Shown piece by piece: positions 46,509 through 56,847 of a stretch of 64,000 bases of DNA. The position numbers were made by a program, and so were the translations under genes. Origin of the DNA: Halorhabdus rudnickae (GTDB lineage: Archaea > Halobacteriota > Halobacteria > Halobacteriales > Haloarculaceae). The notes under the pieces were generated by a model. It did not search any database and was not told where the DNA came from. It was given only the letters and a program-made list of their open reading frames with translations. The stretch covers positions 1,984,001-2,048,000 of the forward strand of contig NZ_CAAHFB010000001.1 of NCBI RefSeq assembly GCF_900880625.1, in the 5' to 3' direction. Within the stretch, counting starts at the first letter, position 1. Each line of letters begins with the position of its first letter.

Positions 46509-47555
46509 ATGGAACTGGTCTTGGAAGAGAACACGGTCCGGGGCAACGGCGAGGCCCGCGAGCGGTTCTACGACTCACGGGGCTACGGCCGGGCCGACGC
46601 CGGCGGGCTTACCCTGGCCCCCGTCGAAGCCGCCCACCTCCTCTATCGGGGCGACATCCAAGCCGTCCGCGACGCCGACAGTGGCGATTCGCTCGCCTTC
46701 CGAGCATTGCTTTCTTCGGCTGCCGTCTCGGAAATCGACTTTCTGGTCTACAAGGACCTCCGGGATCGGGGGTTCTATCTCTCGCCCGCCCGGGAGGGAT
46801 GGGTCGACGATCCCACGGGGGCGGATTTCGTCGTCTATCCGCGCGGACAGGGTCCCTGGGACGACGATATTGCCTACCGCGTCCGGGCCGAAAGCGAGCG
46901 GACGGCCATCGACGCGGCCACGTTGGGTGATAGCGTCCTGGCGGTCGTCGACGAGGAATCGGCGATCACTTACCTCGAAACCAGCCGTCGTGAGATCGAC
47001 GGGTCGACCGCGGTCGACCTACCGACCGGCGTTGGGGCCGACTTGCTGGGCGATCGGGTACTTGTCTGGAGTCCGCCCGAAGCGCTCTATCACGAAGGGT
47101 TCTACGGACAACCGCTCGACGACGAAACTGGCGATCCCCTTCAGCTATCGCTGATCGAGGCCGCCGCGCTGGCCGGTCGTGGCGTCATCGACCTCGCGGA
47201 CGGCGAGGCTGCGATCGTCGAGTGTGGCCGCGAGGTCGAAGGCGAGCGCTTCGACCGGCGGCTGGCTGTCTATCGTTCGCTCCGCGAGCGTGGCGTCGTC
47301 CCCAAGACGGGCTACAAATTCGGTGCTGACTTCCGGACTTACGCCGACGTCGAAAGCGTCGATTCGCTTGGCCACTCCGAGCTGCTCGTGCGGGTGTTGC
47401 CGGCCGATCACGCCTTCTCGCCGCGTGATCTCGCCCTGGATGTACGCCTGGCTCACGGCGTCCGGAAACAGATGGTGTTCGCGTTGGTGACCCGCGCCGA
47501 CAATACCGATTCTCCCCGGATCGAGTGGCTCGAAGTCGGTCGACTGACGCCGTGA
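46509..47555 (+). CDS. endA: tRNA-splicing endonuclease EndA (two-repeat type)
   Basis: A 348-residue enzyme consisting of two related repeats, as in other euryarchaea, which dimerise. The catalytic residues lie in the second repeat: Tyr in GYKFGADFRTY near residue 275, His in LGHSELLVRV near 295 and Lys in GVRKQMVFALVT near 325. The first repeat (DFLVYKDLRDRGFYLSPA) lacks them and is structural. The enzyme cuts bulge-helix-bulge RNA, needed for tRNA introns and for excision of the 16S and 23S precursors from the rRNA operon at 59.8 kb. Followed by the trpS leader. Confidence 0.94.
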   Translation: MELVLEENTVRGNGEARERFYDSRGYGRADAGGLTLAPVEAAHLLYRGDIQAVRDADSGDSLAFRALLSSAAVSEIDFLVYKDLRDRGFYLSPAREGWVDDPTGADFVVYPRGQGPWDDDIAYRVRAESERTAIDAATLGDSVLAVVDEESAITYLETSRREIDGSTAVDLPTGVGADLLGDRVLVWSPPEALYHEGFYGQPLDDETGDPLQLSLIEAAALAGRGVIDLADGEAAIVECGREVEGERFDRRLAVYRSLRERGVVPKTGYKFGADFRTYADVESVDSLGHSELLVRVLPADHAFSPRDLALDVRLAHGVRKQMVFALVTRADNTDSPRIEWLEVGRLTP

Positions 47556-47572
47556 ACGACCGATGGAAAACC

Positions 47573-47579
47573 ATTAAAC
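47573..47579 (+). promoter_or_regulatory. TATA-like box of the trpS leader
   Basis: ATTAAAC starts 31 nt before the leader ATG at 47604, with a purine-rich GGAAAACC just upstream. The 18-bp gap after the endA stop makes this a promoter inside a gene row. Confidence 0.6.
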
Positions 47580-47603
47580 CTCTGCTGGTGGAGACCTACG
47601 CAT

Positions 47604-47684
47604 ATGGCGTCCACTTCCCCCGACATCCGTCGCTGGCACCCTCGGGAAGTGGACAGTGTCGCCGTCGCCGGCTGGCGGGCGTAA
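47604..47684 (+). CDS. Putative Trp-containing leader peptide of trpS
   Basis: An ORF of 26 codons plus stop (MASTSPDIRRWHPREVDSV then AVAGWRA), first ATG after the promoter, no ribosome site. Trp codons are at positions 11 (47634) and 24 (47673), 2 of 26, well above normal. It ends 80 bp before trpS. Competing hairpins overlap its end (see next entry). Its length equals that of the pheST leader at 53412. This design matches bacterial attenuation leaders: scarcity of charged tRNA-Trp would stall the ribosome here. Translation of it is not proven. Chance remains possible because GC-rich sequence gives many short ORFs; the joint position, length and amino acid content argue against that. Confidence 0.6.
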   Translation: MASTSPDIRRWHPREVDSVAVAGWRA

Positions 47685-47703
47685 CTCGCCGCCCGGCGGG
47701 CGA
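47666..47703 (+). promoter_or_regulatory. Competing hairpins at the end of the trpS leader
   Basis: Three short stems can form: CGCC/GGCG (47666-47669 with 47674-47677), GGCG/CGCC (47678-47681 with 47687-47690, stop codon in the loop), and TCGCC/GGCGA (47686-47690 with 47699-47703). The second and third share bases and exclude each other. A ribosome stalled at the Trp codon at 47673 would cover the first two. Confidence 0.45.
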
Positions 47704-47764
47704 CGCTCCCTCCGCTTTCTCGGCTCGGTGGCCTCAAGCACTAATCATCCAGACTATCACAGCA

Positions 47765-49375
47765 ATGACGCGAGACACACACTCCGACGACGAATCGCCA
47801 GACGACCGACGGTCCGAGTCGACCGACCCGAAACTGCGGCCCGACGGCGGGGCGGCCGCCGGTGCCGACGACACGACGCTGGACCCGTGGGGTTCCTCGA
47901 CTGTCTCCGATTATCGCAACCTCTTCGAGGAGTTCGGCATCGAGGAGTTCGAGGCGTTACTTCCCGAGGTACCTGACCCACATTATCTGATGCGCCGAGG
48001 GGTCATCTTCGGCCACCGCGACTACCGGCCCATCGCCCGTGCCATGCGCGAGGACGAACCTTTCGCTGTTCTCTCGGGCTTCATGCCGACCGGTGACCCC
48101 CACATCGGACACAAACTCGTCTTCGACGAGATCATCTGGCATCAACAGCAGGGCGGGGACGCCTACGGTCTCATCGCCGATCTGGAGGCCCACGCCGCCC
48201 GCGGGCTGACCTGGGACGAGATCGACGAGCACGCCAGAGATTACGTCCTCTCACTGCTCGCACTGGGTTTCGACCCCGAAGAGGGGACCCTTTATCGCCA
48301 GTCCGAGAACCGGGAGTTACAGGATCTGGCGTTCGAACTCGGCGTGGAGGCCCGTTTCGCCGAGTTCGAAGGCATCTACGGCTTCGACGGCGAGACTGAC
48401 GTCTCTCACATGCAAAGCGTCGTCACACAGATGGCCGACATTCTCTACCCGCAACTCGACGAGCCGAAACCGACCGTCATTCCCGTGGGTCCCGACCAGG
48501 ATCCCCATATGCGGCTGGCGCGTGACGTGGCCGCCCGGATGCGGTACTTCGGCGTTACAGAAGCGTATGCCTCTTTCGAGACCGACGACGCGGAACGCCA
48601 ACTTATCGCGGAAGCCTACGAGACCCTTTCGGAACAACACCCCGACCAGACCGTCCGGTGTGGCGACGCCGCAACCTACCTCGACAATGGGCGGGATCGC
48701 GACGCGACCGATCCCGACACCATGATCGTCGATCGCGTCATCACGATGCTCCGGGAGGCGGGCAAGGAACCCCTCCGTCCCCGGGTCCGGTTCCTCGATC
48801 GCAACGCCACCGAGGAAGCGTTCGACACCCTCATCGAAGCCATCGACGGCGAGAAGCGCGTCTACGACGAGCATATCGACGTGTTCGACCTCTCCCGGGA
48901 AGCGGCCGAGGAACTCGCCCGCGAGGTCGAACTCGATCACGGTGGCTATGGCTTCCTCCCACCGTCGTCGATCTACCATCGCTTCATGACTGGGCTCACC
49001 GGCGGGAAGATGTCTTCGTCAGTCCCGGCGAGTCACATTAGCCTGCTGGACGACCCCGAAGACGGCTACGACAAGGTCCGGTCGGCGACGACGGGCGGCC
49101 GCGAAACGGCCGACGAACAGCGCGAACTCGGCGGCAAACCGGACGAGTGTCCAGTCTACGAACTGTACGCCTACCTGCTCGCGGATGACGACGACGAACT
49201 CGCGACGGAGGTCTACGAGGAGTGTGCCGGTGGCGAACGGCTCTGTGGCGGCTGTAAGGAGCAGGCGGCCGAACTCATGGAAGCGTTTCTCGGGGATCAT
49301 CAGGAGAAGCGCGAGGAGTGGGCCCAGAAACTCGACGAACTGGACATCGAATTCGACTCCGATCGGAACCGGTGA
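47765..49375 (+). CDS. trpS: Tryptophanyl-tRNA synthetase
   Basis: A 536-residue class I synthetase of the archaeal/eukaryotic type. An acidic, disordered head (1-45) precedes the Rossmann domain: SGFMPTGDPHIGHKLVFDEI (HIGH-like) near residue 100, VIPVGPDQDPHMRLARDVA (Trp pocket and tRNA region), and KMSSSVPASHI (KMSKS-like) near residue 415. The C-terminal end has a Cys cluster (CAGGERLCGGC) and helical anticodon-binding part. Charges tRNA-Trp. Start at the ATG at 47765, 80 bp after the leader stop; the frame is open upstream but crosses the leader in another frame. Confidence 0.95.
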   Translation: MTRDTHSDDESPDDRRSESTDPKLRPDGGAAAGADDTTLDPWGSSTVSDYRNLFEEFGIEEFEALLPEVPDPHYLMRRGVIFGHRDYRPIARAMREDEPFAVLSGFMPTGDPHIGHKLVFDEIIWHQQQGGDAYGLIADLEAHAARGLTWDEIDEHARDYVLSLLALGFDPEEGTLYRQSENRELQDLAFELGVEARFAEFEGIYGFDGETDVSHMQSVVTQMADILYPQLDEPKPTVIPVGPDQDPHMRLARDVAARMRYFGVTEAYASFETDDAERQLIAEAYETLSEQHPDQTVRCGDAATYLDNGRDRDATDPDTMIVDRVITMLREAGKEPLRPRVRFLDRNATEEAFDTLIEAIDGEKRVYDEHIDVFDLSREAAEELAREVELDHGGYGFLPPSSIYHRFMTGLTGGKMSSSVPASHISLLDDPEDGYDKVRSATTGGRETADEQRELGGKPDECPVYELYAYLLADDDDELATEVYEECAGGERLCGGCKEQAAELMEAFLGDHQEKREEWAQKLDELDIEFDSDRNR

Positions 49376-49436
49376 CGGCCCGGGGTGTCGGATCGTCGCC
49401 GTTCCAATCGACGTGAGACGAGCGGACAGACCCTGA

Positions 49437-51224
49437 TTAGAAGATCGCTATCGGGTAGTGGGTGGCCGTCCCGGCAACGATGACCCAAGTCACGAACAGC
49501 GCGTTCGTGAACGCGCCCGTCCAGATACGTCCCGTCTTCCGGAAGAAATACGTCGAGATTAGCGGTGCGATCGAGAGCAACACGAGGAACTGGAAGGCGA
49601 GGATCGTCAGCAGGTCCACGCCGGCCGTCAGGAAGTTACTCATCAGATGGCCGGTCGTGACCATCCACCCGTACTGGACGGCAAGCAGGAGGACGAACGG
49701 CCCCCCGACTATCGCCCAGTTTGTCGCCATCTCCCGCCGGACGGACGCATAGCCGTCACGCGGCCGTAACTCGCCGTGTAGCAGGATTCCGAGCGCGACG
49801 AAGAACACAGTGAACGGGATCAGATACCGCAGGACGATCCAAAACTGGAAGGTCTCGAGTGGTCGGATCCCGAAGACCCAAAAGCGAAAGCCCTGTCCGG
49901 TCAGGTATTCGGTGATCGAGAGCAGGAGGTACAACCCACCGACGATGCCGATACTCGAAAGCGCTGCCCGCCCGATCGTCCGGAGGCCGGTATCGGTTCC
50001 TAGCCCGTATGACGCTCGAAGATCGGCGAACGATCCGTCCTTGGTATAGTGGAACACGGCAAAGCCCACTAGGATCACGATCGCGTTGAACGTCGCCCAC
50101 ACCGCGACGCCGGTCGTAATCTCCTGGGGCAGGAGCGAACTCGCCGCAAAGGTGCTCTGGCCCCATTCCTGGAGGTGATAGTAGGTCAGGATCGGCAGGA
50201 AGAACGCGACGAGTGCCGTACCGATCCGAGCAACCCCTTCGAGTCCGACCGATTCGGGCAGTTCCCGGCTGAATCCGGCCGAGCGATCGTACCGTTCGAC
50301 AAGCAGCGACCCGAGCGGGAACATGAACACGATGCCGCCGAGCATCGCCAGCAACGTGCCCAGTTCCTTGAAGTACCAGGTCTGATCGCCGGGTGGCAGC
50401 GGGTCCTCACCATCTAAGGTCGTCTGGAACCACTCGATCGAGTCTGCGGTCGCGGTCGGCGAGAGGTGCAGCCCTGGATGGGTCGTCCCCGGCGTAATGA
50501 GTTTTCGGGCCGTCCCGTCCTCGATACTTCCGTAGACGCGCCCTTCTTCGACGGTGCTGTCGGTCCCGAAGACGCTCTGCAACTTCCCACTGTTCTCGAC
50601 GTTCCGTGCCTTGTTTAGTTCCCACATGTAGGGGAACTCCTCGTACTCGCCGTAGTCGACCAAGAGATTACGCGGGAATTCGGGAGTTCCTTCGGGTGCA
50701 CCGAACGACCCTGTGGACGATCCGTACAGTACCATCGACTCGTAGCCGTCAGGGTGGACGGCCGCCGCAGCGACGCTTGCCCATCCGCCCATCGAGTGGC
50801 CTTCGAGGCCAATATTGTCCGTATCGACCATCGACAGCGACCGGAGGTACTCCAGGGCCGGCGGGCCGCCGAACCCGTGGGCGAACGCCGGCGGATCGGA
50901 TCCCCCGTGGCCGGTCTGATCGACCGCCAGGACGACGAACCCGCGTCTGGCGTACTCGATCGCGAACGGCGATTGAGTCTCGTGATAATTGATGTAGCCG
51001 TGTGTCGCGAGGATCGCCGGCGCCGGGTCGGCCGTCGAGACACCGGGAGGGACGTACAGCTCTCCGGTCATCATCGTCCCGTTCGTTGCCTCGAACTGAA
51101 CGTCCCGGACCTCCACCGTCTGGCCGTTCGTCTCTACCCAATAGGCTGTACCACTACCGACCAGAACCAGCACGAGTGCAACGATGAACACCGTCGTTCG
51201 TGCATCGAGATCAGTAACCGCCAT
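49437..51224 (-). CDS. Alpha/beta hydrolase with long C-terminal membrane domain
   Basis: A 595-residue protein. One N-terminal helix (TTVFIVALVLVLVGSGTAYW) tethers an outward-facing alpha/beta hydrolase domain (about 30-300): ATHGYINYHET (oxyanion hole), LAVDQTGHGGSDP, GLEGHSMGGWASV (nucleophile Ser in GHSMGG) and HPGLH near the end (candidate His). About eight to ten membrane helices follow (300-595). The domain order suggests a cell-surface ester or peptide hydrolase with a membrane permease-like part. Similar bacterial and archaeal proteins are poorly characterised. An AT-rich box (TTATATAATAT, minus strand, 51258-51246) lies about 31 nt before the ATG at 51224. Confidence 0.85.
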   Translation of the reverse strand: MAVTDLDARTTVFIVALVLVLVGSGTAYWVETNGQTVEVRDVQFEATNGTMMTGELYVPPGVSTADPAPAILATHGYINYHETQSPFAIEYARRGFVVLAVDQTGHGGSDPPAFAHGFGGPPALEYLRSLSMVDTDNIGLEGHSMGGWASVAAAAVHPDGYESMVLYGSSTGSFGAPEGTPEFPRNLLVDYGEYEEFPYMWELNKARNVENSGKLQSVFGTDSTVEEGRVYGSIEDGTARKLITPGTTHPGLHLSPTATADSIEWFQTTLDGEDPLPPGDQTWYFKELGTLLAMLGGIVFMFPLGSLLVERYDRSAGFSRELPESVGLEGVARIGTALVAFFLPILTYYHLQEWGQSTFAASSLLPQEITTGVAVWATFNAIVILVGFAVFHYTKDGSFADLRASYGLGTDTGLRTIGRAALSSIGIVGGLYLLLSITEYLTGQGFRFWVFGIRPLETFQFWIVLRYLIPFTVFFVALGILLHGELRPRDGYASVRREMATNWAIVGGPFVLLLAVQYGWMVTTGHLMSNFLTAGVDLLTILAFQFLVLLSIAPLISTYFFRKTGRIWTGAFTNALFVTWVIVAGTATHYPIAIF

Positions 51225-51351
51225 CCACAGCCAAATCCTATCCCATATTATATAATTATTGTTGTGTGCCGTTCTGGGTGGTCGGTTTGCCCGGCCACTC
51301 CGCTTCAATGAAAGTCACCAACTCACTCGGCCCTTTCGAGATAGGAAGGTC

Positions 51352-51358
51352 TTTTTCC
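51352..51358 (+). promoter_or_regulatory. TATA-like box of the MATE gene
   Basis: TTTTTCC begins 33 nt before GTG 51385, suggesting leaderless initiation there. It lies in the divergent spacer with the membrane hydrolase. Confidence 0.4.
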
Positions 51359-51384
51359 GCCGACGAACTACGTCCGCTCACTTC

Positions 51385-52881
51385 GTGTCACGCCTTCCGC
51401 TTTCGATCGACAGCGCCGTCCAGTCGATCAAGCGCGTTGGTTCTCGCGTGAATCCCGTTCGTGGCGTCATTCTCTTGCTCGGTCTGGGGCTTGCTCGTCT
51501 CGGGTTGATCGACGCCTCGCGGGCACGCCGAGCGACGGATCTCTCCTGGCCGCGCGTTGTCACCGGGATCGCCCGGATGTCGAAAAACGCCGCCGACGTC
51601 GCCATGGTCGGGGCGGCCTCGGGGATCGTCGCCAATCCCGCGATCTCCGGGATCGGACTGGCCGGCCCGTTCTGGGGTCTGGCTTTCGCTTTCGGCGGTG
51701 GGTTCGCGGCCGGGACGATCGCACTTGTCTCTCAGCGCTTTGGTGCCGAGGAGTTCGCCCAATTGAGCCAGGCCGTCCGTTCGAGTTTCTTGGTCGTCGT
51801 CACGGCGACGATACCCATCGGCGCCGCGTTCTGGCTCGTCCCCCAGGAGCTCATCGGCCTGCTGAACAGCGATCCGCAGGTCATCACCTATGGCGCGACG
51901 TATCTCAAGATCCTCGGACTGGGCGTGCCCTTTGCCGGACTCAACCTCGTAGGAAGCCGCGTGCTCATCGGCGCTGACGACGCCCAGATTCCCATGATCC
52001 TCCGAGGTGGCGGTGCGGTCCTGAATATCGCCCTCAACGCCGTGTTCATCTTCGGTCTCGGGCTGGGCGTGGCTGGTGCGGCCTGGGGGACTGTCCTGGC
52101 GAACGTCATGGTCACGTCGTTGTTCGTCGTCGGCTTGATCGTCGGCTGGCTTCCCCTCATCGGGCAGTTCCCGGTCTCGGTCTCCCCCCGAGGGACGTAC
52201 ATTCACTGGGGGGACGTCACCGACATCGTCTCGATCGGGACGCCCGTCGTCGGCCGGAACATGACCTGGACGGTCGCTCGTTTCCCCATGCTCGCAATCG
52301 TCGGGATGTTTGGAACGACGACGCTCGCGGCCTATACCGTCGCCCGGCGTCTCTGGGGGCTGATGAACGTGCCCGGCTGGGGCTTCGGGCTTGCGGCGTC
52401 CAGTCTAGTGGGCCAGCATCTGGGGACCGACGACGAGGAGACCGCCGAGATCTACGGCCGAGAGATCGTCCTGATGGCGGTCGCGACCTACACCGTCTCG
52501 GCAGCGATCGTCGCGCTGGTCGCCCATCCTACTGTTGTCCTGTTCGGAACCGAGGCCGGGGCCGTCCCGATCGCCGTCGGCCTCGTCTTTGCAGCCTGTG
52601 TTGCGATCATCCCGCAAGGAGTCAACAGCACTATCGCCGGAGCCTTAGACGCCACCGGCGACACGAACTGGCCGTTCGTCTACCAGGCTCTCGGGGTGTT
52701 CGTCGTCTCGATCCCGGCGGCCTACCTCGGTGCAACGACCACGATCGGCGTCTGGGGACTGTATATCGCCTTCCTCGGCGAGACGCTCGTCCCCGCGGTG
52801 GGCAACTACTACCGCTTCTCGACGGGCAAGTGGAAGGCAATCAGTCGGGAGTACCGCCCCGAGACGGCTCTGGACGACTGA
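51385..52881 (+). CDS. MATE-family multidrug/organic cation exporter
   Basis: A 498-residue membrane protein with about 12 helices. Family landmarks: MSKNAADVAMVGAASGIVANPAISGIGL in the first helices, GVPFAGLNLVGSRVLIGADDAQIPM midway, and NSTIAGALDATGDTNWPF in the second half. MATE proteins export cationic drugs or metabolites using Na+ or H+. The start could also be a GTG at 51448; the box-spacing rule favours 51385. Substrate not inferable. Confidence 0.88.
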   Translation: MSRLPLSIDSAVQSIKRVGSRVNPVRGVILLLGLGLARLGLIDASRARRATDLSWPRVVTGIARMSKNAADVAMVGAASGIVANPAISGIGLAGPFWGLAFAFGGGFAAGTIALVSQRFGAEEFAQLSQAVRSSFLVVVTATIPIGAAFWLVPQELIGLLNSDPQVITYGATYLKILGLGVPFAGLNLVGSRVLIGADDAQIPMILRGGGAVLNIALNAVFIFGLGLGVAGAAWGTVLANVMVTSLFVVGLIVGWLPLIGQFPVSVSPRGTYIHWGDVTDIVSIGTPVVGRNMTWTVARFPMLAIVGMFGTTTLAAYTVARRLWGLMNVPGWGFGLAASSLVGQHLGTDDEETAEIYGREIVLMAVATYTVSAAIVALVAHPTVVLFGTEAGAVPIAVGLVFAACVAIIPQGVNSTIAGALDATGDTNWPFVYQALGVFVVSIPAAYLGATTTIGVWGLYIAFLGETLVPAVGNYYRFSTGKWKAISREYRPETALDD

Positions 52882-53083
52882 TTGCCGACCGCGACGGAAC
52901 GTTCTCTGGGTCCAGTGATCAGGCCACGGGCGTTTTCGACGCCATTTGATCGCGATAACTGCCGATCAATGAGATGAAATTGAAAAAACTCATTTGAATT
53001 GGTTTCGTCACTATCATACTGGCTCCCAAACAACCCACGACGGGACACACTGGTGTCACGATTTCGTGAATCCAACGACAACC

Positions 53084-53239
53084 ATGGCAGAAACGAATGC
53101 GTCTAATACTGGTATCCGGAAGCTCTTGTACGTCCTTTTCGCGATTCAACTCACGATCATTGGTGCAGTGGTCGAGCCATTTTGGCCACTTATTGTCGCT
53201 GGCGTCGTCATAAGTCTCATCGTAATAATCAGTCCGTAG
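53084..53239 (+). CDS. Small single-pass or double-pass membrane protein
   Basis: A 51-residue protein: a polar start (MAETNASNTGIRK), one continuous hydrophobic region (LLYVLFAIQLTIIGAVVEPF and PLIVAGVVISLIVIISP) with a short break. Codon use and the ATG after ACAACC suggest a real gene, but length makes it uncertain. The 200-bp spacer before it after the MATE gene shows no other gene. Confidence 0.45.
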   Translation: MAETNASNTGIRKLLYVLFAIQLTIIGAVVEPFWPLIVAGVVISLIVIISP

Positions 53240-53380
53240 GTATCGAAGCAGATCCCGGAGACGTTTGTCTTCCGTTGGGGATCACCCTCCATTTCGACTG
53301 GGTCGTGCAAGATCATCCGTCCACAGAACTGTCTGAAAGCCGCACAGGTGGGCTGATCGGTACGGTCACAGGACGGAACG

Positions 53381-53388
53381 TTTTTGTG
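53381..53388 (+). promoter_or_regulatory. TATA-like box of the pheST leader
   Basis: TTTTTGTG starts 31 nt before the leader ATG at 53412, the same spacing as at trpS and at several protein genes here. Confidence 0.6.
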
Positions 53389-53411
53389 TGGGTGCTCACC
53401 AACCCTGTGGT

Positions 53412-53492
53412 ATGGCACCGGACGTCCACGCTCGGTGGACCGCCAGTCAGCCGAGAGCCGCTCGGGCGTTCGGCTTTTTCGAGGGGTTCTGA
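53412..53492 (+). CDS. Putative Phe-rich leader peptide of pheST
   Basis: An ORF of 26 codons plus stop that begins MAPDVHARWTASQPRAAR and ends RAFGFFEGF. Phe codons are at positions 20, 22, 23 and 26: 4 of the last 7. The last codon before the stop is Phe. The ATG is the first after the TATA box. It ends 125 bp before pheS, with hairpins between. E. coli pheST is governed by a Phe-rich leader peptide (pheM) through attenuation; this is the same design in an archaeon. Not proven to be translated. The same length (26 residues) as the trpS leader strengthens the case. Confidence 0.68.
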   Translation: MAPDVHARWTASQPRAARAFGFFEGF

Positions 53493-53562
53493 CGATCGGT
53501 GGACTCCCCGCATTCGGGAAACTGAGTCGGGGACGAAACCGATCGCCCGGGTTCTTCGCCCG
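53493..53562 (+). promoter_or_regulatory. Nested and alternative hairpins between pheST leader and pheS
   Basis: A perfect 8-bp inverted repeat, CGATCGGT (53493-53500) with ACCGATCG (53538-53545), directly follows the leader stop and encloses CCCCG/CGGGG (53506-53510 with 53528-53532). Alternatively CCCG/CGGG (53507-53510 with 53515-53518) can pair. A further stem CGGG/CCCG (53548-53551 with 53559-53562) lies downstream. A ribosome stalled at the last Phe codon would cover the first arm. Confidence 0.55.
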
Positions 53563-53617
53563 CAGGGCCGAGTGAGAACCGTTAACTGAGCAACCCCAGT
53601 GTATCCGACAACAACTG

Positions 53618-55123
53618 ATGGAACTCCCGACCGACCAACTCGCGGTCCTGGAGGCCGCGAGCGCCGACGACAGACGCACCGTTGCACAGCTGAGCGAGGA
53701 GACGGACCTCGCCACGGCAGCCGTCACGCGGGCCGCTTTCGAACTCGAAGCCGAGGGTCTAGTCTCCGTCACCGAAACGACCGACGAATCCGTCTCGCTG
53801 ACCGACGAGGGTCAGTCGTATCTCGACGCCGGCCTGCCCGAACACCGCCTTTATCGGGCCGCCATCGAGCAGGGGGCCGACGAGCATGCCGTCTCGATGG
53901 GCCAGGTCATCGGCGCCGCCGATCTGGGCGGCGAGGCCGTCGACATTGCGCTGTCGAATTTCGCTCGGAAGGGGTACGGCGAGATCGAATCCGGCGAGAT
54001 CACTGCCGATCCCGACGCTGATCTCGGTGCTGATGCGGAAGCGAGCGCCCTGGAGGCCATCGACGCCGGCAAACCCGTCGATGACGACGACGCTCTCGAT
54101 CAACTCGACCGGCGTGAGCTGATCGAGCGCTCCGAACGAACTGTCCGATCGGTCGAACTCACCGACGCGGGCGTGACGGAACTCATGGCCGGCGTCGAGG
54201 AAGCCGAACGGGTCGATCGACTGACCTCCGATCTTCTCACCAGCGGCGAGTGGGAGGACGTCGAATTCGCCGACTACAACGTCGAAGCCGACGCCGAGGC
54301 GATCGACGGCGGGAAGATTCACCCACTACGCGGGATGGCCGAGCGCGTCAAGGAAGTCCTCGTGGGCATGGGCTTTGAGGAAATGGAGGGGCCTCATGCC
54401 GACGCGGAGTTCTGGATCAACGACGCGCTGTTCATGCCCCAGGATCATCCCGCGCGCACGCACTGGGATCAGTTCGCACTGGAGGTCCCGCCGATGGACA
54501 ACCTGCCCGCGGAAATCCGCCACGATGTCGAGCACGCCCACCGCGAGGGCGTCGGAGAAGACGGCGAGGGCTATCACTCGCCGTGGGGTGAGGAGATGGC
54601 CCGTCAGATCGACCTGCGTGGCCATACTACCTCTCTGTCGGCCCGTCACCTCGCTGGCGTCGCGAAGGGTGACCTCGAACCCCCGCAGCGCTTTTTCTCC
54701 GTCGAGAAGGCCTATCGCAACGACGAGATCGACTCGACCCACCTGCTGGAGTTCTTCCAGATCGAGGGGTGGGTGATGGCCGAGGATCTTTCGGTGCGGG
54801 ATCTGATGGGGACATTCACGGAGTTCTACGAACAGTTCGGGATCACTGACCTGGAGTTCAAGCCGACGTACAATCCCTACACGGAGCCGAGTTTCGAGCT
54901 GTTCGGCGAACATCCCGTCACCGGCGAGGTCGTCGAGATCGGCAACTCCGGGATCTTCCGGCCCGAGATGCTCGACCCTCTCGGCGTCGAGTGTGACGTG
55001 ATGGCCTGGGGACTTGCCCTCGAACGACTGATGATGCTGGTCACCGGCGCCGAGGACATCCGTGATGTCCACGGGACGCTGGTCGACCTCGACTATCTCC
55101 GCACCGAGGAGGTGCGTTACTGA
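53618..55123 (+). CDS. pheS: Phenylalanyl-tRNA synthetase alpha chain
   Basis: A 501-residue class II synthetase catalytic subunit of the archaeal/eukaryotic type. The first 200 residues are winged-helix-like repeats (LSEETDLATAAVTRAAFELE). The catalytic core begins near 225: motif 1 GMGFEEMEGPHADAEFWIN, motif 2 SVEKAYRNDEIDSTHLLEFFQIEG, and motif 3 GLALERLMML. It joins PheT to charge tRNA-Phe. The stop shares its last A with the ATG of pheT. Preceded by the Phe-rich leader. Confidence 0.96.
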   Translation: MELPTDQLAVLEAASADDRRTVAQLSEETDLATAAVTRAAFELEAEGLVSVTETTDESVSLTDEGQSYLDAGLPEHRLYRAAIEQGADEHAVSMGQVIGAADLGGEAVDIALSNFARKGYGEIESGEITADPDADLGADAEASALEAIDAGKPVDDDDALDQLDRRELIERSERTVRSVELTDAGVTELMAGVEEAERVDRLTSDLLTSGEWEDVEFADYNVEADAEAIDGGKIHPLRGMAERVKEVLVGMGFEEMEGPHADAEFWINDALFMPQDHPARTHWDQFALEVPPMDNLPAEIRHDVEHAHREGVGEDGEGYHSPWGEEMARQIDLRGHTTSLSARHLAGVAKGDLEPPQRFFSVEKAYRNDEIDSTHLLEFFQIEGWVMAEDLSVRDLMGTFTEFYEQFGITDLEFKPTYNPYTEPSFELFGEHPVTGEVVEIGNSGIFRPEMLDPLGVECDVMAWGLALERLMMLVTGAEDIRDVHGTLVDLDYLRTEEVRY

Positions 55124-56847
55124 TGCCCACTGTCGACATCGACACCGACGAACTCCGGACGCTGACCGGCCACGAGGAGAAGAGCGACGCCGACCTGCGC
55201 GATGATCTCTTCGAACTGGGCCTGGAGTACGAGGGCGAGACCGAGGACGGTGAGCTGCGCTTCGAGTTCGAGCCCGACCGGCTGGATCGTCTCTCCGTCG
55301 AGGGGGTCGCCCGGTCGCTGCGCTACCAGTACGGCGACGATCGCGGCATCTACGTCCCGAACACTAACGATCCCGACTGGACGATCCGCGTTGAGGACGT
55401 CCCCGAGGATCGACCCTACGTCACGGGTGCGATCGTCCGCGGGCTGGATCTCGACGAGGCTTCCCTGGACTCGTTGATCCAGCTTCAGGAGAAGCTCCAC
55501 GCGACGATGGGTCGCAAGCGCGCGAAGGGTGCGATCGGAGTTCACGATTTGACCATGCTCAAGGGGGGATCGGCCGGTGACAGCGAGAAGTCCATCCGCT
55601 ACACCGGTATCGACCGCGACGGCGAGGAATTCGTTCCACTCGAGGGCGACGAAGCGATGACGCCGGGCGAAGTCCTCGAAGGCCACCACATCGGCACGGA
55701 ATACGCCGATCTGGTCGCCGACTACGACACCGTCCCGGCGATCTACGACTCGATCGGGCTGTTCTCGTTCCCACCGGTGGTCAACGGTCGCCGGACCGAG
55801 GTCTCGACCGAGTCGCGAGACCTCTTCATCGAGATGACCGGGACCGACCAGTGGACGATCGACCACATGCTCAATGTCGTCTGTTACGCCTTGGACGCCC
55901 GCGGCGGGACGATCGAAGAGGTCCGCGTCGAGTACGCGAACGGCCCCGAGGAGTACGGCACCGAGCTGGTTCGTCCCGACTTCTCGACGAAAACCAAGAC
56001 GGTCGCTCACGACCGGATCGAGCGCACGCTCGGGATCGAGCTCGCGGCGGAAGACGTGATCGACCTCTTCGAACGATCCGGACTGGACGGCGACGCTACT
56101 GAGGCCGACGATGGGCCAGGCTACGACGTGACGATCCCGCCCTATCGCGTCGATGTCCTCCACCCTGTCGACGTGATCGACGACGTCGGGCGTGCTTACG
56201 GGTTCAATGAACTCGAACCGCGTTACCCCGAGGTGGGGACGATCGGCGGCCGACACGAGCGCGCCCGCCTCGAAGAGGCCGTCCGGACTACCCTGGTCGG
56301 ACTCGGTTTCCAGGATCTATTGAACTTCCACCTCACGAGCGCGGACGAACTGCACGATCGCATGGGGGTCGATCCGGGGACTGCCGTCCTGGGCGGCGGC
56401 GATCCCGTCGCGGTCCGCAACCCCTACAGCGAGGACTACACGGTCGTCCGGACGTGGTTGCTTCCCTCCATTATGCAAGTGTTCTCGAACAACACCCATC
56501 GCCGCTACCCCCAGGACCTCGCGGAGGTCGGGTTCGTCGCCCGGCGAGACGACGAGGCGGACACCAGCGTCGCCGAGGCGCGACACGTCGCAGGTGCGCT
56601 CGCGCGTCACGACGTCTCCTACGAGGACGCCAAGGCACGCCTCCAGGCGCTGGTTGCGGAGTTCGATGCCGACCTGGCGACCCCACCCACGGAACATCCG
56701 TCGTTCATCGACGGTCGGACCGCCACCGTCGAGATCGACGGGGAGGCGGTCGGCGTGATCGGCGAAGTGCATCCCGCAGTCCTCGTCGAACACGATCTAG
56801 AACTGCCAGTGGTCGCCTTCGAGTTCGAGCTGGTAGCGTTGCAGTAG
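55123..56847 (+). CDS. pheT: Phenylalanyl-tRNA synthetase beta chain
   Basis: A 574-residue protein, the length of short archaeal beta chains. B3/B4 region around GAIGVHDLTMLKGG and SIGLFSFPPVVNGRRTEV, the editing domain. B5 region near residues 290-365 (FSTKTKTVAHDRIERTLGIE and VTIPPYRVDVLHPVDVIDDV). The C-terminal catalytic-like core ends in DGRTATVEIDGEAVGVIGEVHP. Overlaps pheS by 1 nt; obligate heterotetramer partner. Followed by a cluster of hairpins. Confidence 0.96.
   Translation: MPTVDIDTDELRTLTGHEEKSDADLRDDLFELGLEYEGETEDGELRFEFEPDRLDRLSVEGVARSLRYQYGDDRGIYVPNTNDPDWTIRVEDVPEDRPYVTGAIVRGLDLDEASLDSLIQLQEKLHATMGRKRAKGAIGVHDLTMLKGGSAGDSEKSIRYTGIDRDGEEFVPLEGDEAMTPGEVLEGHHIGTEYADLVADYDTVPAIYDSIGLFSFPPVVNGRRTEVSTESRDLFIEMTGTDQWTIDHMLNVVCYALDARGGTIEEVRVEYANGPEEYGTELVRPDFSTKTKTVAHDRIERTLGIELAAEDVIDLFERSGLDGDATEADDGPGYDVTIPPYRVDVLHPVDVIDDVGRAYGFNELEPRYPEVGTIGGRHERARLEEAVRTTLVGLGFQDLLNFHLTSADELHDRMGVDPGTAVLGGGDPVAVRNPYSEDYTVVRTWLLPSIMQVFSNNTHRRYPQDLAEVGFVARRDDEADTSVAEARHVAGALARHDVSYEDAKARLQALVAEFDADLATPPTEHPSFIDGRTATVEIDGEAVGVIGEVHPAVLVEHDLELPVVAFEFELVALQ

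Follow-up and report, generated by a model that had tools for sequence, protein, structure and literature searches.

Two aminoacyl-tRNA synthetase operons of Halorhabdus rudnickae, trpS and pheST, are each preceded by a short upstream open reading frame (uORF) that carries codons for the amino acid of the synthetase downstream. We propose that these uORFs encode cognate leader peptides through which Halobacteria carry out ribosome-mediated attenuation, a reading to which we assign a probability of roughly 0.7. Both operons lie in a 64,000-nucleotide stretch (the window) within the 2.29-Mb contig C1 of this 3.36-Mb haloarchaeal genome. An earlier note on this DNA had pointed to a leader design shared by the two operons. 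Judged from the sequences compared here, which include the same-genus relatives Halorhabdus amylolytica and H. salina, that design is a general system and not a two-gene coincidence, and the case for it is stronger than first noted: it is backed by conservation, by in-frame length variation, by covarying alternative stems and by further leaders at cysK and ilvB. The alignments show conserved cognate uORFs, coding constraint, covarying alternative folds and selection for a U-tract within Phe codons, and codons for the cognate amino acid cluster inside, or beside, an arm of a conserved fold that can switch.

At pheS, we compared 138 upstream regions, 58 from genomes of the order and 80 from named halobacterial records. 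As the earlier note stated, the leaders of the window are both exactly 26 codons long, and the pheS leader ends in AFGFFEGF, with 4 Phe in its last 7 codons. It belongs to a family found across Halobacteria: an ATG-initiated uORF with a Phe cluster at its end, the consensus MASEPh...GFGFFFA and a length of 20-29 codons, mostly 24-29, at a constant distance from the TATA box. A uniform leader test, in which an ATG-uORF had to hold at least 3 copies of a given residue within 6 positions among its last 14, found the Phe cluster at 70% of the 138 loci and at 0.00 in shuffled sequence, so that the enrichment over shuffled controls proposed earlier as a check is present at pheS. The same test scored 0 for Phe at trpS, ilvB, cysK and trpD. 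Retention of the frame over variable lengths marks the leader as a sequence under coding constraint. Within the peptide, the initial MASEP is conserved, the middle is hypervariable, and the cognate tail and the RNA-paired segments are kept.

Codons 3-6 of the pheS leader form strand 1, which usually reads CCGAACCCC and is complementary to strand 2 (GGGGUUCGG), located at the first Phe codon. Across 92 unique loci, the mean pairing energy of a leader's own two strands was -18.2 kcal/mol, compared with -15.7 kcal/mol (sd 0.24) when strands were swapped between species; 0 of 300 swaps matched the own pairing, and two subsets of the loci agree. In the window, strand 2 can also fold locally, in a stem (53450-53474) that runs immediately into the UUUUU of the Phe codons (53475-53479). 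Mutually exclusive hairpins had been claimed for both leaders; the claim stands for trpS, and at pheS it takes the form of a choice of strand 2 between strand 1 and this local fold. The statement that no clear U-run terminator is visible needs correction: at pheS this stem is followed by a U-run, and at trpS a U-run sits within strand 3. Codon choice points the same way: UUU makes up 52 of the 151 Phe codons after the first in the cluster, compared with 71 of 1070 Phe codons in the body of pheS in these genomes. A U-run of at least 5 is found in 60% of Phe clusters versus 17% expected, a level reached in 0 of 1000 simulations, and some genomes encode FGFVF as UUC GGG UUC GUU UUU, with one Phe fewer and the U-run kept. 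We regard the stem and the U-tract in the Phe codons as a putative terminator that is not present in all genomes.

The cognate match at trpS stands in part. The leader of the window holds 2 Trp in 26 codons, which taken alone is near chance, and of these only W11 is retained in 7 of 7 genus members. Sister genera are Trp-rich, with DWRWR, CWRWR, AWRWRW or GWRWRW at the W11 position, and two further genomes have GTG-start leaders that end in RWRWRWR and RWRWH. Leaders are thus enriched in codons for their operon's amino acid, weakly at the trpS of the window and strongly in its relatives. Among the operons compared, W.W occurred only at trpS, except for 1 of 30 trpD loci. The alignment contains four conserved blocks: strand 1, UCC(A/G)CUUC; CGCUGG; strand 2, GG(A/G)AG(U/C)GGACAGU; and strand 3, CUC(A/C)CUCCGCUU. 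In each of the ten sequences, strand 2 has two possible pairing partners, strands 1 and 3, which upholds the mutually exclusive folds proposed for this leader. In two genera, an A-U pair between strands 1 and 2 is replaced by G-C through compensatory change (UCCGCUUCC/AGCGGA), and the 2-3 fold of the window has an energy of -50.1 kcal/mol (z -4.65). Despite leader lengths that vary in threes, the gap between the last Trp codon and strand 2 is 11 nt in eight of the ten sequences; ATG-to-strand-2 distances are 38, 41, 47 and 50 nt, all in frame, and the leader stop falls 17-23 nt past strand 2. The alternatives and their spacing are features of the alignment itself, and we infer from them that the folds are positioned for a choice that depends on the ribosome. 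A U-run hairpin as the trpS terminator was considered and rejected: the U-run is paired inside the 2:3 fold, and the physiological sign would be wrong. Since its U-run is paired, the modelled 2:3 fold is better read as an antiterminator.

Two observations concern the surroundings of trpS and the trp genes. The tRNA intron endonuclease gene endA adjoins the 5' side of the trpS leader; haloarchaeal tRNA-Trp carries an intron, and this neighbourhood may therefore be functional. TTGTAC/GTACAA motifs are repeated around the trpD promoter, just upstream of trpD (contig C1, 2272917). They are a candidate operator, and trp biosynthesis therefore seems to be controlled otherwise than trpS.

Do other operons carry leaders of this kind? 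A blind scan for amino-acid clusters covered contig C1; most of the remaining aminoacyl-tRNA synthetase genes are located on different contigs. The scan was noisy: below a score of about 5, real counts equalled shuffled counts, and its other top matches were Lys, Asn, Val, Thr, His and Tyr clusters next to genes that do not look cognate. A Cys-rich uORF ranked second, and first when a TATA box was required. Its ATG lies at 183116 on the minus strand of contig C1, and the gene downstream is cysteine synthase-like (PF00291) and shares an operon with a Cys/Met metabolism enzyme. This uORF has 50-54 codons, CC(C)RC(C) at or beside the stop and an unconserved middle; it is present in 7 of 7 genus members, and a second leader-cysK copy lies on contig C5 of the same genome. 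RNAalifold gave no convincing conserved stem at cysK. The scan list also held an ilvB leader, MRLLVTSGVRSGATSGSALLLVGIVGAL (565681-565767, contig C1), in the gene order leuA-leader-ilvB-ilvN-ilvC followed by two genes read as leuC and leuD. Its tails (LLLVGIVGAL, LLGAIVGAV, RIVGAV) are kept in nearly all of 30 loci under a relaxed criterion. In 24 of 24 loci that have a TATA box before the ATG, this ATG is in frame with the AUUGUAGGG motif, and the frame stays open to it over several different distances of 51-78 nt. A GGGGC...GCCCC hairpin with compensatory changes spans the ilvB leader stop and includes the near-invariant nucleotide string AUUGUAGGGGC; in some genomes, the ilvB motif resembles a palindrome (TGTAGGGG/CCCCTACA). 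Among the same operons, Cys clusters occurred only at cysK and the IVG tail only at ilvB.

The leaders appear to sit at the very start of their transcripts. In both, an A/T-rich box begins 31 nt ahead of the ATG (47573 to 47604 and 53381 to 53412), and the same spacing recurs elsewhere in the window (5103/5134, 27754/27785 and 2238/2269), all as the earlier note had it. Related genomes have CCATTAAA/CCGTTAAA-type boxes at the equivalent position of the trpS leader and a AACGTTTTT-type box about 30 nt 5' of the pheS leader ATG. Box-to-ATG spacing is 29-31 nt in 87 of 92 pheS leaders. The 31-nt spacing is no special link between the two leaders, because this geometry is general for leaderless haloarchaeal promoters. 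What it supports is the placement of the uORFs at the mRNA 5' end: the transcript start is predicted at or beside the leader ATG, which would make the short ORF 5'-terminal, and co-transcription with the synthetase genes is predicted.

Right after the pheS leader stop lies a two-part hairpin, P1/P2, with an invariant GGA/GAA internal loop. Its covariation is 0.656 versus 0.220 +/- 0.026 for shuffled alignments (0 of 500 as high), and at most 0.220 when slid. A covariance model scores the window at 55.7 bits and, of 36 named pheS loci searched, recovers the element 5' of the gene in 32 (E up to 1). In the remainder of the 2.29-Mb contig its best match reaches 24 bits (E about 0.1), so the pheS match is the sole significant one. 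No U-tract follows the hairpin. In H. amylolytica (L303, 1221-1357), the leader frame is broken (MAPNAQLRWIVSQPRVDRVFDL, then a stop) and the P1/P2 hairpin is intact. A kink-turn was considered and rejected, as the loop, GGA/GAA next to a C-C or G-C, is symmetric and has no 3-nt bulge. P1/P2 is possibly a new structured RNA element. Coordinates of all features in the window are given in Table 1.

Table 1. Features of the trpS and pheST leader regions (window positions)
Feature	Position	Strand	Remarks
endA, tRNA intron endonuclease	46509-47555		Directly upstream of trpS leader; Pfam-confirmed
TATA-like box of trpS leader promoter (ATTAAAC)	47573-47579	+	31 nt 5' of leader ATG
trpS leader ORF, MASTSPDIRRWHPREVDSVAVAGWRA, then stop	47604-47684	+	
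trpS strand 1 (UCCACUUCC)	47610-47618	+	Pairs with strand 2
Conserved Trp codon W11	47634-47636	+	11 nt before strand 2; CGCTGG invariant in alignment
trpS strand 2 (GGAAGUGGA)	47645-47653	+	Pairs with strand 1 or strand 3
trpS strand 3 (UCCGCUUUC)	47711-47719	+	Holds conserved U-run; partner of strand 2 in alternative fold
trpS, tryptophanyl-tRNA synthetase	47765-49375	+	Pfam PF00579
TATA-like box of pheS leader promoter (TTTTTG)	53381-53386	+	AACG(T/C)TTTT in relatives
pheST leader ORF, MAPDVHARWTASQPRAARAFGFFEGF, then stop	53412-53492	+	
pheS strand 1, codons 3-6	53418-53427	+	Pairs with strand 2 at first Phe codon
Terminator-like local hairpin	53450-53480	+	Stem 53450-53474, then UUUUUC of Phe codons 22-23
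pheS strand 2 (GGGCGUUCGG)	53464-53473	+	Overlaps first Phe codon of cluster
P1/P2 hairpin (P1 CGATCGGU/ACCGAUCG; GGA/GAA internal loop; P2)	53493-53545	+	Right after leader stop
Promoter-like element GAACCGTTAACTGA	53576-53590		About 36 nt 5' of pheS
pheS, Phe-tRNA synthetase alpha subunit	53618-55123	+	Pfam PF01409
pheT, Phe-tRNA synthetase beta subunit	55123-56847	+	Pfam PF17759, PF03484

How might these leaders work? We infer that they are translated, that the ribosome stalls on uncharged cognate tRNA and that the stalled ribosome affects the RNA. At trpS, with ample Trp-tRNA, the ribosome would reach the stop, strands 1 and 2 would pair behind it and the U-run of strand 3 would stay free; RNA polymerase and/or aCPSF1/FttA would read this free U-run, which would favour premature termination. 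When Trp-tRNA is scarce, the ribosome would stall inside the 1-2 loop, at the Trp codon that precedes strand 2 by 11 nt, and so forbid 1-2 pairing. Strand 2 would then capture strand 3 with its U-run, and transcription would continue into trpS. Scarce Trp-tRNA would thus yield more TrpRS, a sensible sign, provided that a free U-run promotes termination. At pheS, the Phe codons themselves make up strand 2 and the U-tract, and a ribosome stalled by scarce Phe-tRNA would therefore cover both, so that the hairpin-plus-U-tract signal could neither form nor be read. With ample Phe-tRNA, the ribosome would reach the stop, strand 2 and the U-tract would be exposed and expression would be damped. P1/P2 would be free to form only while the ribosome is upstream, and for this reason it probably serves the ON state as a pausing or antitermination element. 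The cysK and ilvB leaders follow the same coding logic.

The output of the proposed system, through premature termination or through translation, is its least certain step. Termination draws support from the U-tracts, from the binding of aCPSF1 to terminator U-tracts in Methanococcus (PMC8716108) and from the T-stretches and hairpins that mark 3' ends in Haloferax volcanii (PMC7237163). We tentatively suggest, at somewhat less than even odds, that these leaders are widespread archaeal attenuators and that at pheS the sensor codons double as the terminator nucleotides, such that a Phe-stalled ribosome would shield the U-tract directly.

Several observations weigh against attenuation by cognate leaders. 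The leaders are dispensable: beyond a few genera, the majority of trpS loci lack one, and about 30% of pheS loci score leader-free by the uniform criteria, some of them frameshifted or divergent. No Trp leader was found upstream of trpD or trpC. A U-run of at least 5 is absent from 38% of pheS leaders, so termination at the Phe codons cannot be universal. The promoter-like element directly 5' of pheS (GAACCGTTAACTGAC) is conserved across the order, leader-free genomes included; it is a possible second promoter and may bypass the leader. At ilvB, part of the I-V-G signal may stem from an operator or another RNA or DNA constraint on AUUGUAGGGGC, because that string is nearly invariant.

Could the leaders instead act on translation? 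A ribosome on the leader might alter folding or re-initiation at the synthetase start with no early termination. Such translational attenuation would suit the P1/P2 hairpin with no U-tract behind it, the more than one third of pheS leaders that lack a long U-run and the Shine-Dalgarno (SD)-like GGAGGT at the ilvB start of this genome. It would also suit mycobacterial leaderless poly-Cys small ORFs, which by the title of a 2020 paper from Canestrari are said to be cysteine-responsive attenuators of operonic expression. We nevertheless consider it rather unlikely, as it leaves the over-use of UUU and the U-run selection in the Phe cluster, and the U-run in strand 3 of trpS, without a role; moreover, neither the pheS nor the trpS start codon was seen to be sequestered in a conserved way, although no systematic test of this was made. 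A different view is that the conserved elements are translation-independent RNA- or protein-binding sites, such as synthetase autoregulation through P1/P2 or a DNA operator at ilvB, and that the frames are incidental. The highly conserved P1/P2 loop, its restriction to pheS within the contig, its persistence in L303 despite the broken frame and the palindrome-like ilvB motif of some genomes all fit this view. Yet translation is needed to account for leader lengths that vary in threes with the ATG held 29-31 nt away from its TATA box, and for cognate clusters in front of four separate operons; we judge this view improbable.

The remaining two explanations carry far less weight with us. The uORFs might code for trans-acting small proteins, or be stand-alone genes that merely neighbour synthetases. 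Babski et al. 2016 do list such uORFs as small proteins in long 5' untranslated regions (5'-UTRs; PMC4983044), and the MASEP start is conserved. However, the peptide middle is hypervariable where the cognate tail and RNA-paired segments are kept, strand 1 pairing accounts for the conserved initial codons, and every amino acid matches its downstream operon, which makes this explanation very improbable. Chance, or a compositional artefact of GC-rich upstream DNA, might account for a trpS leader with near-background Trp content (2/26) and for blind cluster scores below about 5 that equal shuffled controls. Against it stand the Phe clusters at pheS (0.70 versus 0.00), covariation and conservation over many genera; for pheS these comparative data refute chance, and overall we give it practically no credence. 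Cognate leaders of a ribosome-mediated attenuation system remain the reading we favour.

Leaders of this kind have been seen before in a model haloarchaeon. By differential RNA sequencing (dRNA-seq), Babski et al. 2016 assigned sixteen uORFs to long 5'-UTRs of Haloferax volcanii. Two of these are a uORF of 26 aa before HVO_2948 (pheS) and one of 23 aa before HVO_A0127 (tryptophan-tRNA ligase), and no second start site is marked for either (PMC4983044). These are the same kind of feature as the leaders described here, and the data lend experimental support to the transcription of such leaders. The section of that paper that covers them presents them as small proteins or uORFs and proposes no amino-acid match, RNA switch or attenuation. 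Full-text literature searches, which covered papers outside subscription, found no report of leader-peptide attenuation in archaea.

Our findings offer a candidate function for uORFs that have been listed since 2016 without one. Each of four operons has a leader that matches its own amino acid; the leaders are conserved to a varying extent across Halobacteria, and the proposal is directly testable in a genetically tractable archaeon. If it is true, archaeal transcription and translation are coupled tightly enough for a ribosome to steer termination, and archaeal U-tract termination is open to regulation.

How do these leaders compare with known regulators? T-box and amino-acid riboswitches likewise place synthetase genes under the control of amino-acid or tRNA status, but they sense the tRNA or metabolite directly, without leader translation. 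In an Rfam scan of the window, the leader regions matched no family (only rRNA and tRNA matched), and the T-box covariance model, with its specifier loop and T-box, was unmatched. Actinobacteria provide a closer parallel: an attenuator of ilvBNC in Corynebacterium glutamicum was reportedly described by Morbach in 2000. Its leader peptide is made without a ribosome-binding site (PMC11857589), and the poly-Cys small ORFs of mycobacteria are leaderless as well. This absence, and the branched-chain and Cys specificity of the actinobacterial leaders, recall the ilvB and cysK leaders described here; they belong to another domain of life, and a sequence relationship was neither expected nor searched for. 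We know of no counterpart among them of P1/P2 or of Phe codons that double as a U-tract. Leader-peptide attenuation is a classic bacterial mechanism, exemplified by the trpL, pheL/pheM, ilvB and ilvG leaders of enterobacteria. The haloarchaeal leaders resemble these ribosome-mediated attenuators in their short cognate-rich peptides, their alternative stems, the synthetase or biosynthesis genes downstream and their specificity for Phe, Trp and branched-chain amino acids. They differ in their archaeal host, in a leader ATG placed at, or close to, the predicted 5' end of the mRNA with no SD sequence, in the U-tract that the cognate codons of the pheS leader form and in the 1:2 versus 2:3 switch of trpS. 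The termination machinery, too, would be archaeal, built on a U-tract and aCPSF1/FttA.

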